Source of the DNA: Leptolyngbya iicbica LK
Lineage (GTDB): Bacteria > Cyanobacteriota > Cyanobacteriia > Phormidesmidales > Phormidesmidaceae
DNA: 64,000 bases
Direction: 5' to 3'
Assembly (NCBI RefSeq): GCF_004212215.1
Contig: NZ_QVFV01000002.1
Coordinates: 929,528-993,527 of the forward strand
Part shown: positions 26,163-32,841 of the stretch, piece by piece
How positions within the stretch are numbered: position 1 is the first letter of the stretch
How the letters are laid out: each line of letters opens with the position of its first letter
Program-made: the position numbers and the translations under genes
Notes under the pieces: generated by a model
The model's database searches: none
What the model saw: only the letters and a program-made list of their open reading frames with translations
Told to the model about the DNA's origin: nothing

Positions 26163-29100
26163 ATGCTCTTTTCCGTCTTATCGCCCACCCCTGATCAGGT
26201 AGAGTCAGCCTTTGCCTGCCTGACTGAGGCGGCTTGGCAACTGCGCAGTTGCCGTAAGGTGGAAACGCTTTTAAGAACTGGCGTACAGCTTACTCAGTCG
26301 CTGTTTAAGGGCGATCGCGTCTTGATTTGCCAGGCCACTGACTACGGCAATGTCACGGTAGTCGCTGAAATAGTAGGGGAAGAGTGGCGATCGCTGCTCG
26401 GTCAGAAGATAGCGGCGGCTCAGCTGGCTCTGTCTCCCACGGCCATCGCTCCGCCAGAGGCTGGGGTGGCGATTGATCAGGTAGACGCTAGCCATCTCGA
26501 TGCCACTGCGATCGCCGCTTTAACGGCATACCAAGTCAAAGCTTGCCTAGCCCGGGGCATTTGGATCGATGCGCCACCGACCGCAGCAGAGACGACGCAA
26601 CTTTGGGGTTGGGTGGTCATTCAGCAGTGCCAGTCAAGCTATCACTGGCAACCCTTGCAAGGTGAGGCACTGCAACACCTGGCAATGCAAATCGGGGCGA
26701 CCTTAGAAAGATTGCAATGGCAAGCCCACTTAGAGACGGTGGAAAGTCAAACGGCAGCCCTGATCGCACAAACAGAAGCGAAATATCAGCAGGCGACTCG
26801 GGCTTGCTCAATCGGCGTGTGGGATTGGGATTTAGACACCAACGAGATTTATCTCGATCCCCTGTTGAAGGAAATGCTGGGCTATCGGGATGAGGAGATT
26901 CGCAACCACATTGATGATTGGGTGCAGTACGTCTACGAAGCTGACCTGCCAGCGGTGATGGCAGCGGCAACCGACCATTTAGAGGGGCGCACGCCAGAAT
27001 ACCGGGTGGAGCATCGCATGGTGCACCGCGATGGGCATTTAGTGTGGGTGTTGGCCCAGGGGGCAGCGCAGCGATCACCCGACGGTACCCCCTACCGCCT
27101 GGTTGGCACCGACATCGACATCACCGAACGCAAAATTGCTGAACTCGCCTTAGCCAAACAAACTCAGCAGGAGCGGGCCTTTAATGAAGTCGCGCAAGCG
27201 GTGCGCAGTTCCCTAGAGTTAGACACAATCTTTGTAGAAGCAGCAGCGGCGATTTCTGACTTTCTTACCGGGGAAGTGGCGATTGTTCAATACCTGCCAG
27301 CCGAAGGCTGCTGGCGGCATCAAGTGGTGTATAGCCAGGGCAATCGTCAGGTAACCAAACAGTATGTAGATGTGCCCGATGCCGATAATCCGTTTGCTCA
27401 ACAGCTCAAACGCCTGGAAGTCGTGCAAGTGGACAATACAGGAACGATTGACGACCCTATTAATCGTCACTTGGCGGCAGACTCTCGCTATCGGGCTTGG
27501 CTGATGGTGCCCATCGGCGTTGAAGGGGTTATCTGGGGCTCGCTTACCCTCGCACGTTCAACCCACCCGCTGCCATGGTTGACTGACGAGGTGCAGTTAG
27601 CCCAGCGGGTGGCCGAGCAATTAGCGATCGCGATCCATCAGGCCAACCTTTACCAACAACTTCAATCGGCCCACGAGCGTGATGCCCTGGTCTTGCAAAG
27701 TATTGGCGAAGGCGTGTGGGATTGGGATCCCAACGAAGATGTCATTCTGGATTCCGATCGCTATTGGGAAATTCTCGGCTATGACCCGCAAAGGCAGGGC
27801 CTTAGTAGCTTCGTGCGCGAGCTAGAACGCATTCATCCTGATGATCGCGCCGTCGTGCAAGACACGGCCTATCGGCATCTTGAGCAGCAAGAGCCGTTTG
27901 TGATGGAATTTCGGATGCAACATCGCCAGGGCCACTATCTCTGGATTCGCGCCCGTGGTCAGGCAGTTTGGAATGAACACGGGCATCCCATCCGGATGCT
28001 AGGCACGATTGAAGATATTAGCGATCGCAAGCAGGCCGAACTCGATCTGCAAGCCAGCGAAACGTTCCGCCGCCAGGTGATGGAGCTGGCCCCCGTGCCG
28101 CTCTATATCTACGACCTTGAATTAGGCCAGCTGACTTACTGTAACCCAGCCTATGAAGCCAGTTTGGGCTACTCCCAGGCAGAAATTAAAGCGCTGGGCA
28201 AAGCCTTCCTGCCCGCGATTTTTCCGACCGAAGATCACGAGCTGATCACAACCTATGACCAGCAACTTCTCGCTGATCGCACGGGTGAGATTTTCGAGTG
28301 GGAGCATACCTGTCTGCGCAAAGATGGCAGCCTCCGATTGCTACAAAATCGAGAGGTGATCTTGACCCGGCGAGCAGACGGCACGCCTAAGGAAATTCTC
28401 GGCTTTGATATTGATCTGACGGAGCTAAAGCAGGCCGAGGCATCCCTCATCAAGAGCAATGCCCTCTATGAATCACTCACCGATGCCATGCCGCAATATC
28501 TCTACCGTAAAGATCGAGAAGGGCGTGTGACCTATGTGAATTCGGCTTATTTGCGTTGGCTGAATATCACGGCAGCTGACGTCATCGGCAAAACCGTCTA
28601 CGATTTTTATCCGCCAGATTTAGCAGCCAACTATGACGCGGCCGATCGCCAAGTGATCGCCACTGGGGAAATTCTTGACCTTGTGGAAGAACACCAACCC
28701 CCCAGCCAAAACGAACGCATCTATGTCCAGGTCGTGAAATCGCCCGTACGCGATGGTGAGGGCAACATTGTCGGGACCCAGGGCATCTTTTGGGATGTGA
28801 CGGCACGTCGCCAACTTGAGCAAGCGTTGCAAGTATCGCGTGATGAATTAGCGATGATTTTGAACAGTTTGCACGCTGCCGTTGCTAGATTTCGCTTAAC
28901 GGGCGACGTTTACGACACCATTACTTACGACTACTACTCGCCAGGCACGGAAACGGTCTTTGGGTATCCTCCAGCGATGTTGCAACATCAGCCTCAACTC
29001 TGGCGATCGCGGGTCATCCCCGAAGATTTAGTCAACATCATTGTCCCGGCGGTACAAGAATTGCGCTCAGGCAAACCCTACACAACGATCGAGTACCGCT

Positions 29101-31088
29101 TCCGCCATCCGGATGAGTCGATCCACTGGATTCAAGAGACGATCTCAGCCACTCAAGCCACTGATCAAGATGACTGGACGTTTACCATCATCGCGACAGA
29201 CATCAGCGATCGCCAACAGGCCGAAGTCGACCTCCAACAGACCCGGACCTTACTCCAACAAGTGCTCGACCATCTGCCCGTCGGCGTCTTTGCCAAAACC
29301 GCCGACACCCGACAATACACCCTCTGGAACCCCGCCTGCACCCAGCTAACCGGCATTAACCGCGACGACGCCATCGGCCGCACTGACCATGATCTGTTGC
29401 TCCCAGAGCAAGCCAATCAATGTATTGCCGACGATCAGGCAGCCATTGCCAGCCATCAGCTTTGGGAACGCCCGCAGGAGAGGGTTGAATTGGGCGACGG
29501 GCGATCGCACATCATTCACAATCGCAAAGTCGTCGTTTACGATGCCACCGACACTCCCCAGCTCATCATCGGCATCGTTGAAGATATTACCGCCCGCGTT
29601 ACCGCCGAAGCCAGCCTGCGCCAACGAGAAGCCGAATTTCGCACCCTGGCCGAAAACTCCCCCGATGGCATCCTCCGCGTGGATGCTGCGTTCTGCCTTC
29701 AATACGTGAATCCCACTATCGAACGACGCTTGGCCTTGCCCCAGGCCGCCTTACTCGGTAGACCGGTGACCGCCTTTGATCTGCCCTCTGCCTCCCAATG
29801 GCAAGCTGCGATCGCCCAAGCATTTGCCACCGGCCAAGAGCAACAACTAGAAACGCAAGAATCGCTCCCGGCTGGAGACCACTTCTTTCAGTCGCGCATT
29901 GTCCCTGAGCACAACAATCAGGGAGACATCACCTCGGTGTTGATTGTGTCGCGTGACATCACCTCACTCAAGCAAGCTCAGACGGCGCTGTTGCATCGCG
30001 CCAATCAAGAACATGCCCTCCGCATGATTACGCAGCATATTCGCGAATCACTAGACCTGGCCCCGATTCTTGCGGCAGTGGTGGAAGAGGTCCAGCAACT
30101 GCTGCAGGCTGATCGCACCTTAATTTTTCAACTCACATCAGCGCATTCTGGCATTGTCGTTCAAGAACAGAGCCGAACTGAATTTCCGACCATTCTGGCC
30201 ATGCAGTGGGAAGATGAACACTTTTCGCCCAATTGCTATGCGTTTTACCAGCAGGCGCAGGGCCGCATCGTGCAAGACATCACCCAGGATGACTGGGGCG
30301 ACTGCTTAATCGAGTTTATGCAGTCGATCGGCGTCCAGTCCAAAATGGTGGCCCCCATCACTCAGACTCAGACCGATGGCACCACTAGCGTCTGGGGATT
30401 ACTCATTACCCACGCCTGCGCCACTCGCCGCCATTGGCAAAAGGATGAATTGACCCTTTTGCAGCAGGTGGCCCAACAACTCGCGATCGCCCTCCAACAG
30501 TCCCAATTACATCAGCAACTCTTAGCCGCCAATCACGAGTTAGAACATCTTTCCACCACCGACGGCTTGACCCGCATTGCCAACCGCCGGCAGTTTGACA
30601 ACACGCTAACTGTTGAGTGGCAGCGAGCCCAACGAGAACATCGAGAACTCACGCTCGTTTTGTGTGATATTGACTATTTCAAGCAATACAACGATACCTA
30701 TGGGCACCCCGCTGGGGATGACTGTTTGATCGCTGTGGCCCAAGCTCTCAAAAACTGTGTCAATCGCTCGACCGATTGCGTCGCGCGTTATGGCGGTGAA
30801 GAATTTGCCATTATTTTGCCCAACACAAATTTAACGGGGGCAATCGTTGTACTAAAGCAGATGCAAGCCGCGATCGCTGAGCTCAACCTCGCCCACGATA
30901 CTCACCCCACCGCCTCGCGAGTCACCCTCAGTTATGGCGTTACGGTGGCAAAGCCTGGCCACTTCCCCACCGTTGGCGATTTGCTCGGACGCGCCGATCT
31001 CGCCCTCTATCAAGCCAAACAAGCGGGGCGCGATCGCTACGCGGTAGCGCCGCCAATCCCGCTGTCATCCCCAACTGTCATGCCCTAA
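26163..31088 (+). CDS. Multi-sensor diguanylate cyclase (3 GAF, 7 PAS, GGDEF)
   Basis: A 1641-residue cytosolic signalling protein with no membrane segment. Order: GAF (about 15-190), PAS (210-330), GAF (340-500), PAS domains at about 510-630, 640-760, 765-885, 895-1020, 1030-1150 and 1155-1275, GAF (1285-1455), GGDEF (1470-1630). The GGDEF domain has an intact GGEEF site and an RSTD inhibition site five residues before it, so it should make c-di-GMP with product feedback. No EAL domain is present. The third GAF resembles bilin-binding GAFs: Cys1381 in DCLIEFMQSIGV lines up with the bilin Cys of phytochromes, followed by Leu instead of His. It is transcribed alone. Confidence 0.93.
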   Translation: MLFSVLSPTPDQVESAFACLTEAAWQLRSCRKVETLLRTGVQLTQSLFKGDRVLICQATDYGNVTVVAEIVGEEWRSLLGQKIAAAQLALSPTAIAPPEAGVAIDQVDASHLDATAIAALTAYQVKACLARGIWIDAPPTAAETTQLWGWVVIQQCQSSYHWQPLQGEALQHLAMQIGATLERLQWQAHLETVESQTAALIAQTEAKYQQATRACSIGVWDWDLDTNEIYLDPLLKEMLGYRDEEIRNHIDDWVQYVYEADLPAVMAAATDHLEGRTPEYRVEHRMVHRDGHLVWVLAQGAAQRSPDGTPYRLVGTDIDITERKIAELALAKQTQQERAFNEVAQAVRSSLELDTIFVEAAAAISDFLTGEVAIVQYLPAEGCWRHQVVYSQGNRQVTKQYVDVPDADNPFAQQLKRLEVVQVDNTGTIDDPINRHLAADSRYRAWLMVPIGVEGVIWGSLTLARSTHPLPWLTDEVQLAQRVAEQLAIAIHQANLYQQLQSAHERDALVLQSIGEGVWDWDPNEDVILDSDRYWEILGYDPQRQGLSSFVRELERIHPDDRAVVQDTAYRHLEQQEPFVMEFRMQHRQGHYLWIRARGQAVWNEHGHPIRMLGTIEDISDRKQAELDLQASETFRRQVMELAPVPLYIYDLELGQLTYCNPAYEASLGYSQAEIKALGKAFLPAIFPTEDHELITTYDQQLLADRTGEIFEWEHTCLRKDGSLRLLQNREVILTRRADGTPKEILGFDIDLTELKQAEASLIKSNALYESLTDAMPQYLYRKDREGRVTYVNSAYLRWLNITAADVIGKTVYDFYPPDLAANYDAADRQVIATGEILDLVEEHQPPSQNERIYVQVVKSPVRDGEGNIVGTQGIFWDVTARRQLEQALQVSRDELAMILNSLHAAVARFRLTGDVYDTITYDYYSPGTETVFGYPPAMLQHQPQLWRSRVIPEDLVNIIVPAVQELRSGKPYTTIEYRFRHPDESIHWIQETISATQATDQDDWTFTIIATDISDRQQAEVDLQQTRTLLQQVLDHLPVGVFAKTADTRQYTLWNPACTQLTGINRDDAIGRTDHDLLLPEQANQCIADDQAAIASHQLWERPQERVELGDGRSHIIHNRKVVVYDATDTPQLIIGIVEDITARVTAEASLRQREAEFRTLAENSPDGILRVDAAFCLQYVNPTIERRLALPQAALLGRPVTAFDLPSASQWQAAIAQAFATGQEQQLETQESLPAGDHFFQSRIVPEHNNQGDITSVLIVSRDITSLKQAQTALLHRANQEHALRMITQHIRESLDLAPILAAVVEEVQQLLQADRTLIFQLTSAHSGIVVQEQSRTEFPTILAMQWEDEHFSPNCYAFYQQAQGRIVQDITQDDWGDCLIEFMQSIGVQSKMVAPITQTQTDGTTSVWGLLITHACATRRHWQKDELTLLQQVAQQLAIALQQSQLHQQLLAANHELEHLSTTDGLTRIANRRQFDNTLTVEWQRAQREHRELTLVLCDIDYFKQYNDTYGHPAGDDCLIAVAQALKNCVNRSTDCVARYGGEEFAIILPNTNLTGAIVVLKQMQAAIAELNLAHDTHPTASRVTLSYGVTVAKPGHFPTVGDLLGRADLALYQAKQAGRDRYAVAPPIPLSSPTVMP

Positions 31089-31233
31089 CGTACCGCTGTT
31101 GACTCTCTCGATCGCTTCAAGCCCAAAAAAGTCAGCAGGTTGCTCCAACAATATTTGGGCTTTGAGATTTTGAATTTTGAATGCTGCACTTGGCGATCGC
31201 CAGCAGCACGCCCCCGACCACCCTGCAGCCATC

Positions 31234-31265
31234 AAAAAAAGCCTTGCTATGAATAACAAGGCTTT
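31234..31265 (-). terminator. Intrinsic terminator of the linker gene
   Basis: AAAGCCTTG (31238-31246) pairs with CAAGGCTTT (31257-31265). On the minus strand the stem is followed by a T-run (31234-31240), 32 bases beyond the stop of the phycobilisome-linker gene. Confidence 0.8.
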
Positions 31266-31296
31266 CACACACAAATTTTTGCCCCAGAGGCCACAG

Positions 31297-32022
31297 CTAT
31301 CGTTTGAGATGCAGCAAAGCTCGACTCAACGTCTCCCGTTGTTGCGGTGGCAGGGCAGCAGCAACTTCTTCCAAATCTTCGGGATGAATGCGCCGCAACA
31401 CTTGCAATAGCTCGACCCGGTCATGATCTTCGTGGTCGCCAAAGGTCAAGCTCTCAGATTGGGCCGCGCAGGTGCCGCCATCGCACTGCAATCCTAATTC
31501 ATGCCACAGCATCGTTGGCATGACAGTGCCGCGACGACCATGTAATTCGTTGATCAACAAATCATTTTCGAGATAGGCTTTGGGCGATTCGTACACTTTT
31601 TCCGGATAGGGATGAGGCACCGTAAAGCAACCAAAATGCTTGCGATATTCTTCGGAGTCAATCATTTTGGTGATCAACTCTTTGACCCCCTCCCGCATCA
31701 AAATGTCGCTGTATTCACTCATTTCGGCATGGCTTTTCGGCGCCCGCCCCATGAAATGTTTGAAGCACAGTTCTAAAAACTTGAGATTTGAACTGCTGTA
31801 GTAAAACTCGTTGAGGTAAACCTCAGACGTGCCCAAGGCTTTGAGAAACCGCTTGACGCCAATCTTATCTTTGAGAAAGTCTTTTTCCGGTTTGGCTAAC
31901 TGGCGATGTTCTGAGGCATAGGGCTGGCGCTCTAGCACTTGGGTATAAATTTGGTAGAGCGCCGCTTGCCGCTCCTCTAGTGAAGAACGACGGCTGACAA
32001 TTGTTTCTTGAATAGCTTCCAT
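31297..32022 (-). CDS. Phycobilisome rod-core linker-domain protein
   Basis: A 241-residue protein. Residues about 20-175 are a phycobilisome linker domain of the pfam00427 type: LYQIYTQVLERQPYAS, IGVKRFLKALGTSEVY, LELCFKHFMGRAPKS and IDSEEYRKHFGCFTVP. Such domains bind inside phycobiliprotein hexamers. There is no second linker repeat, no CpcD domain and no hydrophobic tail as in CpcL. The C-terminal ~60 residues are unusual, with Cys in LQCDGGTCAA and an acidic/His segment, ending in a helical LLQVLRRIHPEDLEEVAAAL unit. AGAGGA precedes the ATG. It follows the phycobiliprotein-like gene by 74 bases and ends at a terminator, so the two form an operon. Confidence 0.85.
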   Translation of the reverse strand: MEAIQETIVSRRSSLEERQAALYQIYTQVLERQPYASEHRQLAKPEKDFLKDKIGVKRFLKALGTSEVYLNEFYYSSSNLKFLELCFKHFMGRAPKSHAEMSEYSDILMREGVKELITKMIDSEEYRKHFGCFTVPHPYPEKVYESPKAYLENDLLINELHGRRGTVMPTMLWHELGLQCDGGTCAAQSESLTFGDHEDHDRVELLQVLRRIHPEDLEEVAAALPPQQRETLSRALLHLKR

Positions 32023-32096
32023 TGCAATATCCTCTGGGGTAGGTCGAATTCAGGTAGGGGGGACGCTACGATGAGGGGCTTAATGCGATCGCCACT

Positions 32097-32570
32097 TTAG
32101 GTATAGGGCTGCATCGATTCAAAAATAATGTTGATGAATGGGGTCACCTGTTCGCTGACCTGAGCGGGTAATTTTTCATTCACCACTTCTTTCAAATGCT
32201 GGTAAGCCTTACAGCAGGCCTCTTGTTTCTGATGGGCTCTGAGCATGGTGTCAAGCCAGAACATCATTTTCTCGCGGAACATAAATTCATCGTCCAGCAA
32301 GATACACAGCGAGATGTAGCGCAACACTTGCGCCATGTCGTATTGGCAGCGCTTGCCGCTCCGCTTAATGATTTCAGGATGAACTCTGGCAAATTTTTTC
32401 AGCGCTTCTAGCACGAGCTCATTGCTATGCTGACTGAGGGTTTGATAAGCCATCAGACGTTTTTGATAGGTCTCAACATACGTCTCCAGGGGGCGGAGTT
32501 CATCACTGGTTAAATAGCGACCATCGGCATCAATAAGAGCCTGGTTAAGCTGGTGATTTAAAGCTGGCAT
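32097..32570 (-). CDS. Divergent phycobilisome (allophycocyanin-like) protein
   Basis: A 157-residue globin-fold protein of the phycobilisome family. RCQYDMAQVLRYI at 74-86 aligns with the chromophore site of allophycocyanin subunits: Cys75 for the bilin thioether, Asp78 for the pyrrole nitrogens and Arg84. Elsewhere it departs from ApcA/B/D/F and phycocyanin; helices after the site (FMFREKMMFWLDTMLRAHQ) are very unlike theirs. GGAGG sits 4 bases before the ATG. It is followed on the same strand by a linker gene. It is not a structural rod or core subunit I can name; a low-abundance terminal emitter or a phycobilisome maintenance factor are options. Confidence 0.82.
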   Translation of the reverse strand: MPALNHQLNQALIDADGRYLTSDELRPLETYVETYQKRLMAYQTLSQHSNELVLEALKKFARVHPEIIKRSGKRCQYDMAQVLRYISLCILLDDEFMFREKMMFWLDTMLRAHQKQEACCKAYQHLKEVVNEKLPAQVSEQVTPFINIIFESMQPYT

Positions 32571-32802
32571 ATTCCCTCCAAAAGTCCCCGTTGTCTCAGG
32601 GCGTCATGATTTCAAACAGGGTTGTTTGGTTCAGTGATTGCAGGGGGGCTTCATGGAGCCAAAAGCAGATAATCGAAGGGGCTAGATCGACTTCGGCGGC
32701 CACATCAAAACAGCGCCTGCAATACGTTTCTGTCTGATATCGATAGATTGCCCAAGGGGCGGAAAGAGGGCGATCGCGAGATGCAATTCTTAATCAAGCC
32801 AC

Positions 32803-32841
32803 CAAAAAAAATTGCCGCATGCGTTATGAGCAAACGGCAAT
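32803..32841 (-). terminator. Intrinsic terminator downstream of scpA
   Basis: ATTGCCG (32811-32817) pairs with CGGCAAT (32835-32841); on the minus strand the stem is followed by an eight-T run. It lies about 155 bases past the scpA stop and separates scpA from the phycobiliprotein gene. The rest of 32571-32995 holds no gene I can support. Confidence 0.65.

Follow-up and report, generated by a model that had tools for sequence, protein, structure and literature searches.

An operon encoding an orphan phycobiliprotein and a single-domain linker of a separate clade recurs in filamentous cyanobacteria

The window, i.e., the whole stretch of 64,000 nucleotides analysed here (C2:929528-993527), belongs to a cyanobacterial genome of 5.7 Mb in 16 contigs, with Halomicronema sp. 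CCY15110 as a near relative. Two genes on its minus strand, together referred to as PAIR, encode an orphan phycobiliprotein-like protein of 157 aa (PAIR PBP, operon gene 1, 32097..32570) and a single-domain linker of 241 aa (PAIR linker, operon gene 2, 31297..32022). They are separated by a spacer of 74 bases (32023..32096, minus strand), and folding revealed an intrinsic terminator-like hairpin (13 bp, loop of 4) with a U-run 3' of the linker gene (31232..31266, minus strand), which is kept in the close relative. The presumed leader/promoter of approximately 250 bp 5' of the PBP gene (32571..32820, minus strand) has a GGAGG before the start codon, and a promoter scan of this region found no clear sigma-70 site above chance. 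Both the upstream 250 bp and the spacer are nearly identical between the source genome and CCY15110. An earlier sequence-only reading had proposed a two-gene operon based on the common strand, the spacing and a terminator, all of which were found at the positions given above, and its statement that the operon lies apart from the apc and cpc clusters holds in the source genome. In comparison with CCY15110, dN/dS amounts to 0.017 for the PAIR PBP and 0.039 for the linker, i.e., both genes are under strong purifying selection. Since full-length orthologues occur in many genera as well, a chance pair of open reading frames can be excluded. Convergent with PAIR, the plus strand (26163-31088) encodes a 1641-aa protein that, as judged by eye, appears to be of the multi-PAS/GAF type with a GGDEF-like C-terminus, for which no link to PAIR was found.

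The PAIR PBP matches PF00502 with 80.5 bits (cut-off 22.2) but reaches none of the named NCBIfam equivalogs (ApcA, ApcB, CpcA, CpcB, CpeA, and CpeB), the best being apcB with 37 bits versus 228; the canonical ApcA, ApcB, CpcA, and CpcB of the source genome pass their own NCBIfam cut-offs. The description of this protein as a divergent phycobiliprotein, unlike rod or core subunits, is borne out. Its AlphaFold2 model (pLDDT 89, computed with 38 orthologues as input) is predicted to adopt the allophycocyanin fold, with Foldseek E-values down to 1.6e-6 and Z-scores of 15-19. Like the light-harvesting subunits (ApcA/ApcB/ApcD/ApcF and CpcA/CpcB), the PAIR PBP combines a globin-like fold with a helical N-terminal extension, and it shares with them the bilin Cys and Asp as well as the LRY motif. 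However, it is only about 20% identical to these subunits, falls outside of their alpha/beta clade, and is encoded by a single gene without an alpha/beta partner. The model also matches the structure of smURFP (Z 17), an artificial protein engineered from ApcA that works as a lone phycobiliprotein subunit without a partner. A scan of viral_contigs with the PAIR PBP returned zero relatives.

With respect to the bilin site, codons 75-78 (C-Q-Y-D; 32337..32348, minus strand) keep the bilin-type Cys and Asp, while Tyr replaces the canonical Arg of the CxRD motif. Cys75, Asp78, Arg74, and Tyr85 are invariant in the orthologue alignment; Cys75 and Asp78 occur in 41/41 PAIR PBPs, and position 77 is occupied by Tyr or Phe in all but one of these 41 (40/41). 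The chromophore loop that precedes the Cys in light-harvesting subunits (GGNxY...RR; at least 8 residues) is missing from PAIR PBPs, so that the combination of CxRD and loop, which we took as the mark of a light-harvesting subunit, is absent. The earlier claim that Cys75, Asp78, and Arg84 represent a preserved bilin site therefore stands for the Cys and the Asp, whereas Arg84 corresponds to the LR common to all phycobiliproteins. Given that the site is kept in part, a bilin, if any is bound, is likely to be more open or differently held; the loss of the CxRD Arg and of the loop could also mean weak or no bilin binding. The source genome encodes four CpeS-type lyase relatives.

The PAIR linker contains a single PF00427 domain (residues 15-137; 31612..31980, minus strand) scoring 127.1 bits (cut-off 28.7). 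As the sequence-only reading had described, neither a CpcD domain (Pfam search at E up to 10) nor a hydrophobic anchor (best 19-residue hydropathy mean 0.29) was detected. Like the PBP, the linker stays far below each named NCBIfam family; against the CpcG models, it scores 50-58 bits with cut-offs of 420-440. In its model (pLDDT 86), residues 1-182 match ApcE repeats, CpcC, and other rod linkers with Z-scores of 22-23; for the C-terminal helices, i.e., the last 60 residues, no convincing structural match was found among the matches listed. The PF00427 domain, the N-terminal arm and the extension to approximately residue 182 are thus common to the PAIR linker and to the ApcE repeats, CpcC, and CpcG/CpcL, from which it differs by its own clade and by a tail with a C-x4-C motif (C-D-G-G-T-C, C180-x4-C185; 31468..31485, minus strand). 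This motif is present in 56/57 orthologues and nearly invariant in the alignment; it is absent from the linkers of Thermostichales and from that of one further locus (L038). The tail had been called Cys/His-rich, a label that is less apt than that of a conserved C-x4-C motif. In a tree of PF00427 domains, PAIR linkers group with a Thermostichales linker (100/99), separately from the ApcE repeats, CpcC, and CpcG; an approximately unbiased (AU) test rejected, though only mildly, a grouping of this Thermostichales linker with the third ApcE repeat (p 0.024). An assignment as a CpcC rod linker is contradicted by the lack of a CpcD domain and the position outside the CpcC clade, and one as a CpcG/CpcL rod-core or PSI linker by the position outside the CpcG clade and the lack of a hydrophobic C-terminal anchor. 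On sequence grounds, the PAIR linker is a phycobilisome linker class of its own. In several Pseudanabaena-type genomes (L037/L089 and others), the linker is duplicated and fused to a single protein of approximately 440 aa, in which both the PF00427 domain and the C-x4-C motif occur twice.

We scanned 388 Cyanobacteriia genomes and identified a linker orthologue (E <= 1e-30) in 107, with 281 genomes lacking one at this threshold. When linker and PBP matches were paired by their coordinates, the PBP was present in 84 of the 107 linker genomes, corresponding to an odds ratio of 70 in Fisher's test on presence, with a p value that is inflated by kinship. It lies directly upstream on the same strand in 71 of the 107 (median gap 174 bases) and on a different contig in 8, and 5 Thermostichales-type genomes have a PBP within approximately 3 kb on the opposite strand. 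The two genes are thus co-inherited, mostly as one operon, and the absence of the pair from related genomes, which the sequence-only reading had named as grounds for its own rejection, is at odds with an adjacent same-strand pair in 71/388 genomes. The remaining 23 linker genomes have no PBP of the PAIR type, and 21 of them fall into one genus matching Nodosilinea, where the linker must therefore function without this PBP. Among 80 named loci, 54 have an adjacent PBP, and Leptolyngbya PCC 6406, Nodosilinea PCC 7104, Oscillatoria PCC 10802, Pseudanabaena PCC 7429, Roseofilum, and Laspinema are included in the named loci. PAIR hence recurs in many filamentous cyanobacteria (Leptolyngbya-like, Oscillatoria-like, and Pseudanabaena genomes), while model strains such as Synechocystis, Anabaena, or Synechococcus elongatus were not among the named matches of this pattern-limited scan, which may explain why PAIR has been overlooked so far. 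At one locus (L271, genome G127), a single linker gene is preceded by a tandem of two PAIR-type PBP genes.

Besides the partner gene, no neighbour is common to most PAIR loci. In three genomes (G041, Scytolyngbya HA4215-MV1, and Stenomitos rutilans HA7619-LM2), the PBP is non-adjacent and the linker gene lies inside cpc/peb phycobilisome clusters, which comprise cpcB/cpcA as well as lyase-like genes of the HEAT type; two of the three clusters additionally contain two ferredoxin-dependent bilin reductases. This context speaks for an antenna role of the linker. In six of six Thermostichales-type genomes, the linker is divergently oriented, approximately 0.4-0.6 kb from a cluster with the order Fe-S - V4R - PBP-alpha - PBP-beta - V4R. 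At these loci (L092, L265-L269), PBP-beta keeps Cys-x-Arg-Asp and PBP-alpha has lost the Cys. Since one of the Thermostichales-type genomes (G039) has X- and Y-type loci (see below) elsewhere, the linker-side cluster represents a second, duplicated one, and since the six genomes constitute one lineage, they count as one event. This context speaks for a tie of the linker to PSII assembly.

Clusters of this type correspond to the slr0144-slr0152 (Pap) cluster, for which a connection with the assembly and repair of PSII has been described (PMC4853703, PMC9145668, PMC13326532). The orphan globins associated with it (slr0149-type) were named cyanobacterial BBAGs by Rockwell et al. in 2023; they bind bilin without lyases, fluoresce poorly with quantum yields of 3-7%, and have no known function (PMC10151467). 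Like the PAIR PBP, they lack the full chromophore loop and are orphan globins resembling phycobiliproteins. The source genome encodes three more orphan PF00502 families, here named W, X, and Y, of which X and Y adjoin V4R proteins, a 2Fe-2S ferredoxin and a Ser/Thr kinase, i.e., the slr0144-slr0152-type layout. The X and Y families (L236, L240, L250, L251, and L242, as well as L237 and L238 of the source genome) have lost the bilin Cys, which is replaced by Trp in X and mostly by Ser in Y. In contrast to these types, the PAIR PBP keeps the Cys, forms its own clade and is partnered with a linker; the BBAG of Thermostichales (PBP-beta) keeps Cys-x-Arg-Asp without the full loop. A cluster of Fe-S and two V4R genes around PAIR was found neither in the window nor as a shared feature of the relatives' contexts compared; only in Thermostichales does it adjoin the linker. 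A BBAG query against plasmids matched only allophycocyanin-annotated genes of Acaryochloris.

The PF00502 tree resolved three clades: the canonical subunits (100/100), X and Y together with the Thermostichales PBP-beta (95/98), and the PAIR PBPs (87/80). The separation of the second clade argues against membership of the PAIR PBP among the cluster-associated BBAGs. After addition of a BBAG from outside of the Cyanobacteriia (L316), PAIR, W, and the canonical subunits were split from the BBAGs with 100/99. AU tests rejected grouping the PAIR PBP with ApcD (p 7e-72) or ApcF (p 4e-7), with the alpha side (7e-57) or the beta side (1e-81), and also PAIR and W combined with alpha (2e-5) or beta (5e-6), whereas a single clade of PAIR and W was not rejected (p 0.44). 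A canonical alpha or beta subunit that subsequently decayed is accordingly dismissed as the origin of the PAIR PBP. The same applies to orthology with the Thermostichales PBP-beta, which the shared Cys and the adjoining linker had suggested earlier (AU p 0.0006), and to an ApcD/ApcF-type terminal emitter, one of the functions offered by the sequence-only reading; its check by a tree with Apc/Cpc subunits placed the PAIR PBP outside the ApcD and ApcF clades. With a length of 2.1, the canonical branch is very long, and long-branch attraction may thus affect the tree; furthermore, the side of the root on which PAIR falls is not fixed, because the tree contains no BBAG-2/photoglobin outgroup and the L316 BBAG is itself a long branch. 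What can safely be stated is that the PAIR PBP is not part of the alpha/beta clade and lies on the path that connects this clade with the BBAGs. That PAIR descends from a branch that predates the alpha/beta duplication and has survived, with a single-subunit bilin protein between BBAGs and light-harvesting phycobiliproteins and an equally old linker class, is an idea that we consider rather unlikely at present.

Judged from its two proteins, PAIR belongs to no standard rod, core or terminal-emitter part. We tentatively favor, as the best explanation though short of a probable one, that it is an accessory bilin-bearing antenna unit, which would be docked on the phycobilisome or its interface with PSII by a dedicated linker. 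The PAIR PBP would carry its bilin covalently attached, in a pocket that is more open, and, being encoded by a single gene without an alpha/beta partner, may form a homodimer or a mixed dimer with a canonical subunit. The PF00427 domain of the linker would dock inside a phycocyanin or allophycocyanin hexamer, in its cavity, where the tail may keep the PBP in place. The presumed role of the unit is that of an accessory acceptor, a quencher or a phycobilisome-PSII contact rather than that of a bulk harvester. The co-occurrence of both genes, purifying selection, the fold matches, and the invariant Cys75, Asp78, and Arg74 favor this explanation, as do the linker genes in cpc/peb clusters (three genomes) and beside a PSII-assembly-type cluster (six Thermostichales-type genomes) and the four CpeS-type lyase relatives. 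The loss of the CxRD Arg and the loop, the weak fluorescence of BBAGs, and the linker without a PBP in the Nodosilinea-like genus argue against it. The alternative antenna piece suggested by the sequence-only reading may hold, with indirect support from the cpc/peb context of the linker in three genomes, whereas the suggested degradation device lacks support: neither PAIR protein matches a HEAT-repeat model, which speaks against an NblB-type degradation factor.

Other explanations accommodate part of the same evidence. PAIR may instead be a factor in PSII biogenesis or repair, with the PBP acting like the BBAGs of the Pap cluster without light harvesting and the linker tethering the machinery to the phycobilisome or keeping the antenna off immature PSII. 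The orthologous linker (clade support 100/99) that diverges from the Fe-S/V4R/PBP cluster in the six Thermostichales-type genomes, the assigned role of this cluster type in PSII assembly (PMC4853703, PMC9145668) and the short loop common to the PAIR PBP and BBAGs are in line with such a factor. However, the six genomes amount to one event in one lineage, the remaining genomes examined have PAIR at a distance from the Pap-type cluster, three other genomes have the linker gene within cpc/peb clusters, and a clade of the PAIR PBP with the Thermostichales PBP-beta is rejected (p 0.0006). We regard this alternative as unlikely. Quite unlikely, in our assessment, is an assembly chaperone or bilin handler, in which the PBP would bind free bilin or apo-subunits for delivery by the linker during rod and core assembly. 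While the linker beside lyase-like HEAT genes in three genomes (with bilin reductases in two of these) and the lyase-independent bilin uptake of BBAGs (PMC10151467) would fit, this role is filled elsewhere by lyases and known chaperones, and no bilin-synthesis gene was found near PAIR in most relatives.

A further candidate is a redox- or light-responsive quencher, in which the C-x4-C motif of the linker tail, conserved in 56/57 linkers, would sense redox state and the weakly fluorescent PBP would be moved onto the antenna, dissipating energy; quantum yields of just 3-7% for BBAGs (PMC10151467) agree with this. Yet, the motif is missing from the Thermostichales linkers and from L038, and the Cys pair may instead bind metal or be structural; we regard this mechanism as improbable. 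PAIR could also be what remains, decayed or neutral, of an antenna operon that had been duplicated. This would fit the absence of the linker from most sampled cyanobacteria (281/388 at the threshold used), but it is already contradicted by purifying selection (dN/dS 0.017 and 0.039) and by residues that are invariant across orders, and can hardly be entertained.

Literature searches on the pair, on orphan phycobiliproteins and on 'bleomycin hydrolase' misannotation, which covered mostly non-subscription papers, returned no description of PAIR, although PAIR may sit unnamed in the supplementary trees of PMC10151467. PAIR consists of known parts, PF00502 and PF00427, in a combination and in clades for which no description was found in the literature searched. 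Descriptions of the phycobilisome usually rely on a set inventory of rods, core, terminal emitters, and linker classes; with PAIR, this inventory gains an orphan phycobiliprotein as well as one more clade of linkers. Furthermore, PAIR provides a concrete connection from antenna linkers to the slr0144-slr0152-type PSII-assembly cluster. The origin of light-harvesting phycobiliproteins was termed unclear in 2023 (PMC10151467), and a PAIR lineage between BBAGs and alpha/beta subunits, equipped with its own linker, makes this question testable in culturable strains. If PAIR did branch off before the duplication, it would serve as an extant model for phycobilisome units of an early, partner-free kind.

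Additional orphan proteins were observed during this analysis. The W family (G000 C8:126003-126419; L008 and L091) comprises orphan phycobiliproteins with CxRD and without the loop; in 5 of 11 loci checked, W adjoins signalling genes of the PAS/response-regulator/GGDEF type, and these neighbours suggest a sensor role. The BBAG cluster at L316 (genome G396, of the same phylum but outside of the Cyanobacteriia), with the order Fe-S, V4R, globin, V4R, encodes a ferredoxin, two V4R proteins, a Cys-less globin, a heme oxygenase-like gene product and kinases, as well as a second phycobiliprotein-like protein of 268 aa. At L239:2252-3325 (genome G018), a PF00502-like domain (41.5 bits) forms the C-terminal part of a 358-aa protein, which is encoded next to a PAS-like protein and is possibly a phycobiliprotein-type sensor. 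Finally, two genomes (L083:10338-10835 and L165:2447-3043) encode, next to pebAB/cpc genes, an ApcA/ApcD-like orphan phycobiliprotein that is highly divergent, with a branch length of 2.5; the two proteins are 75% identical to each other.
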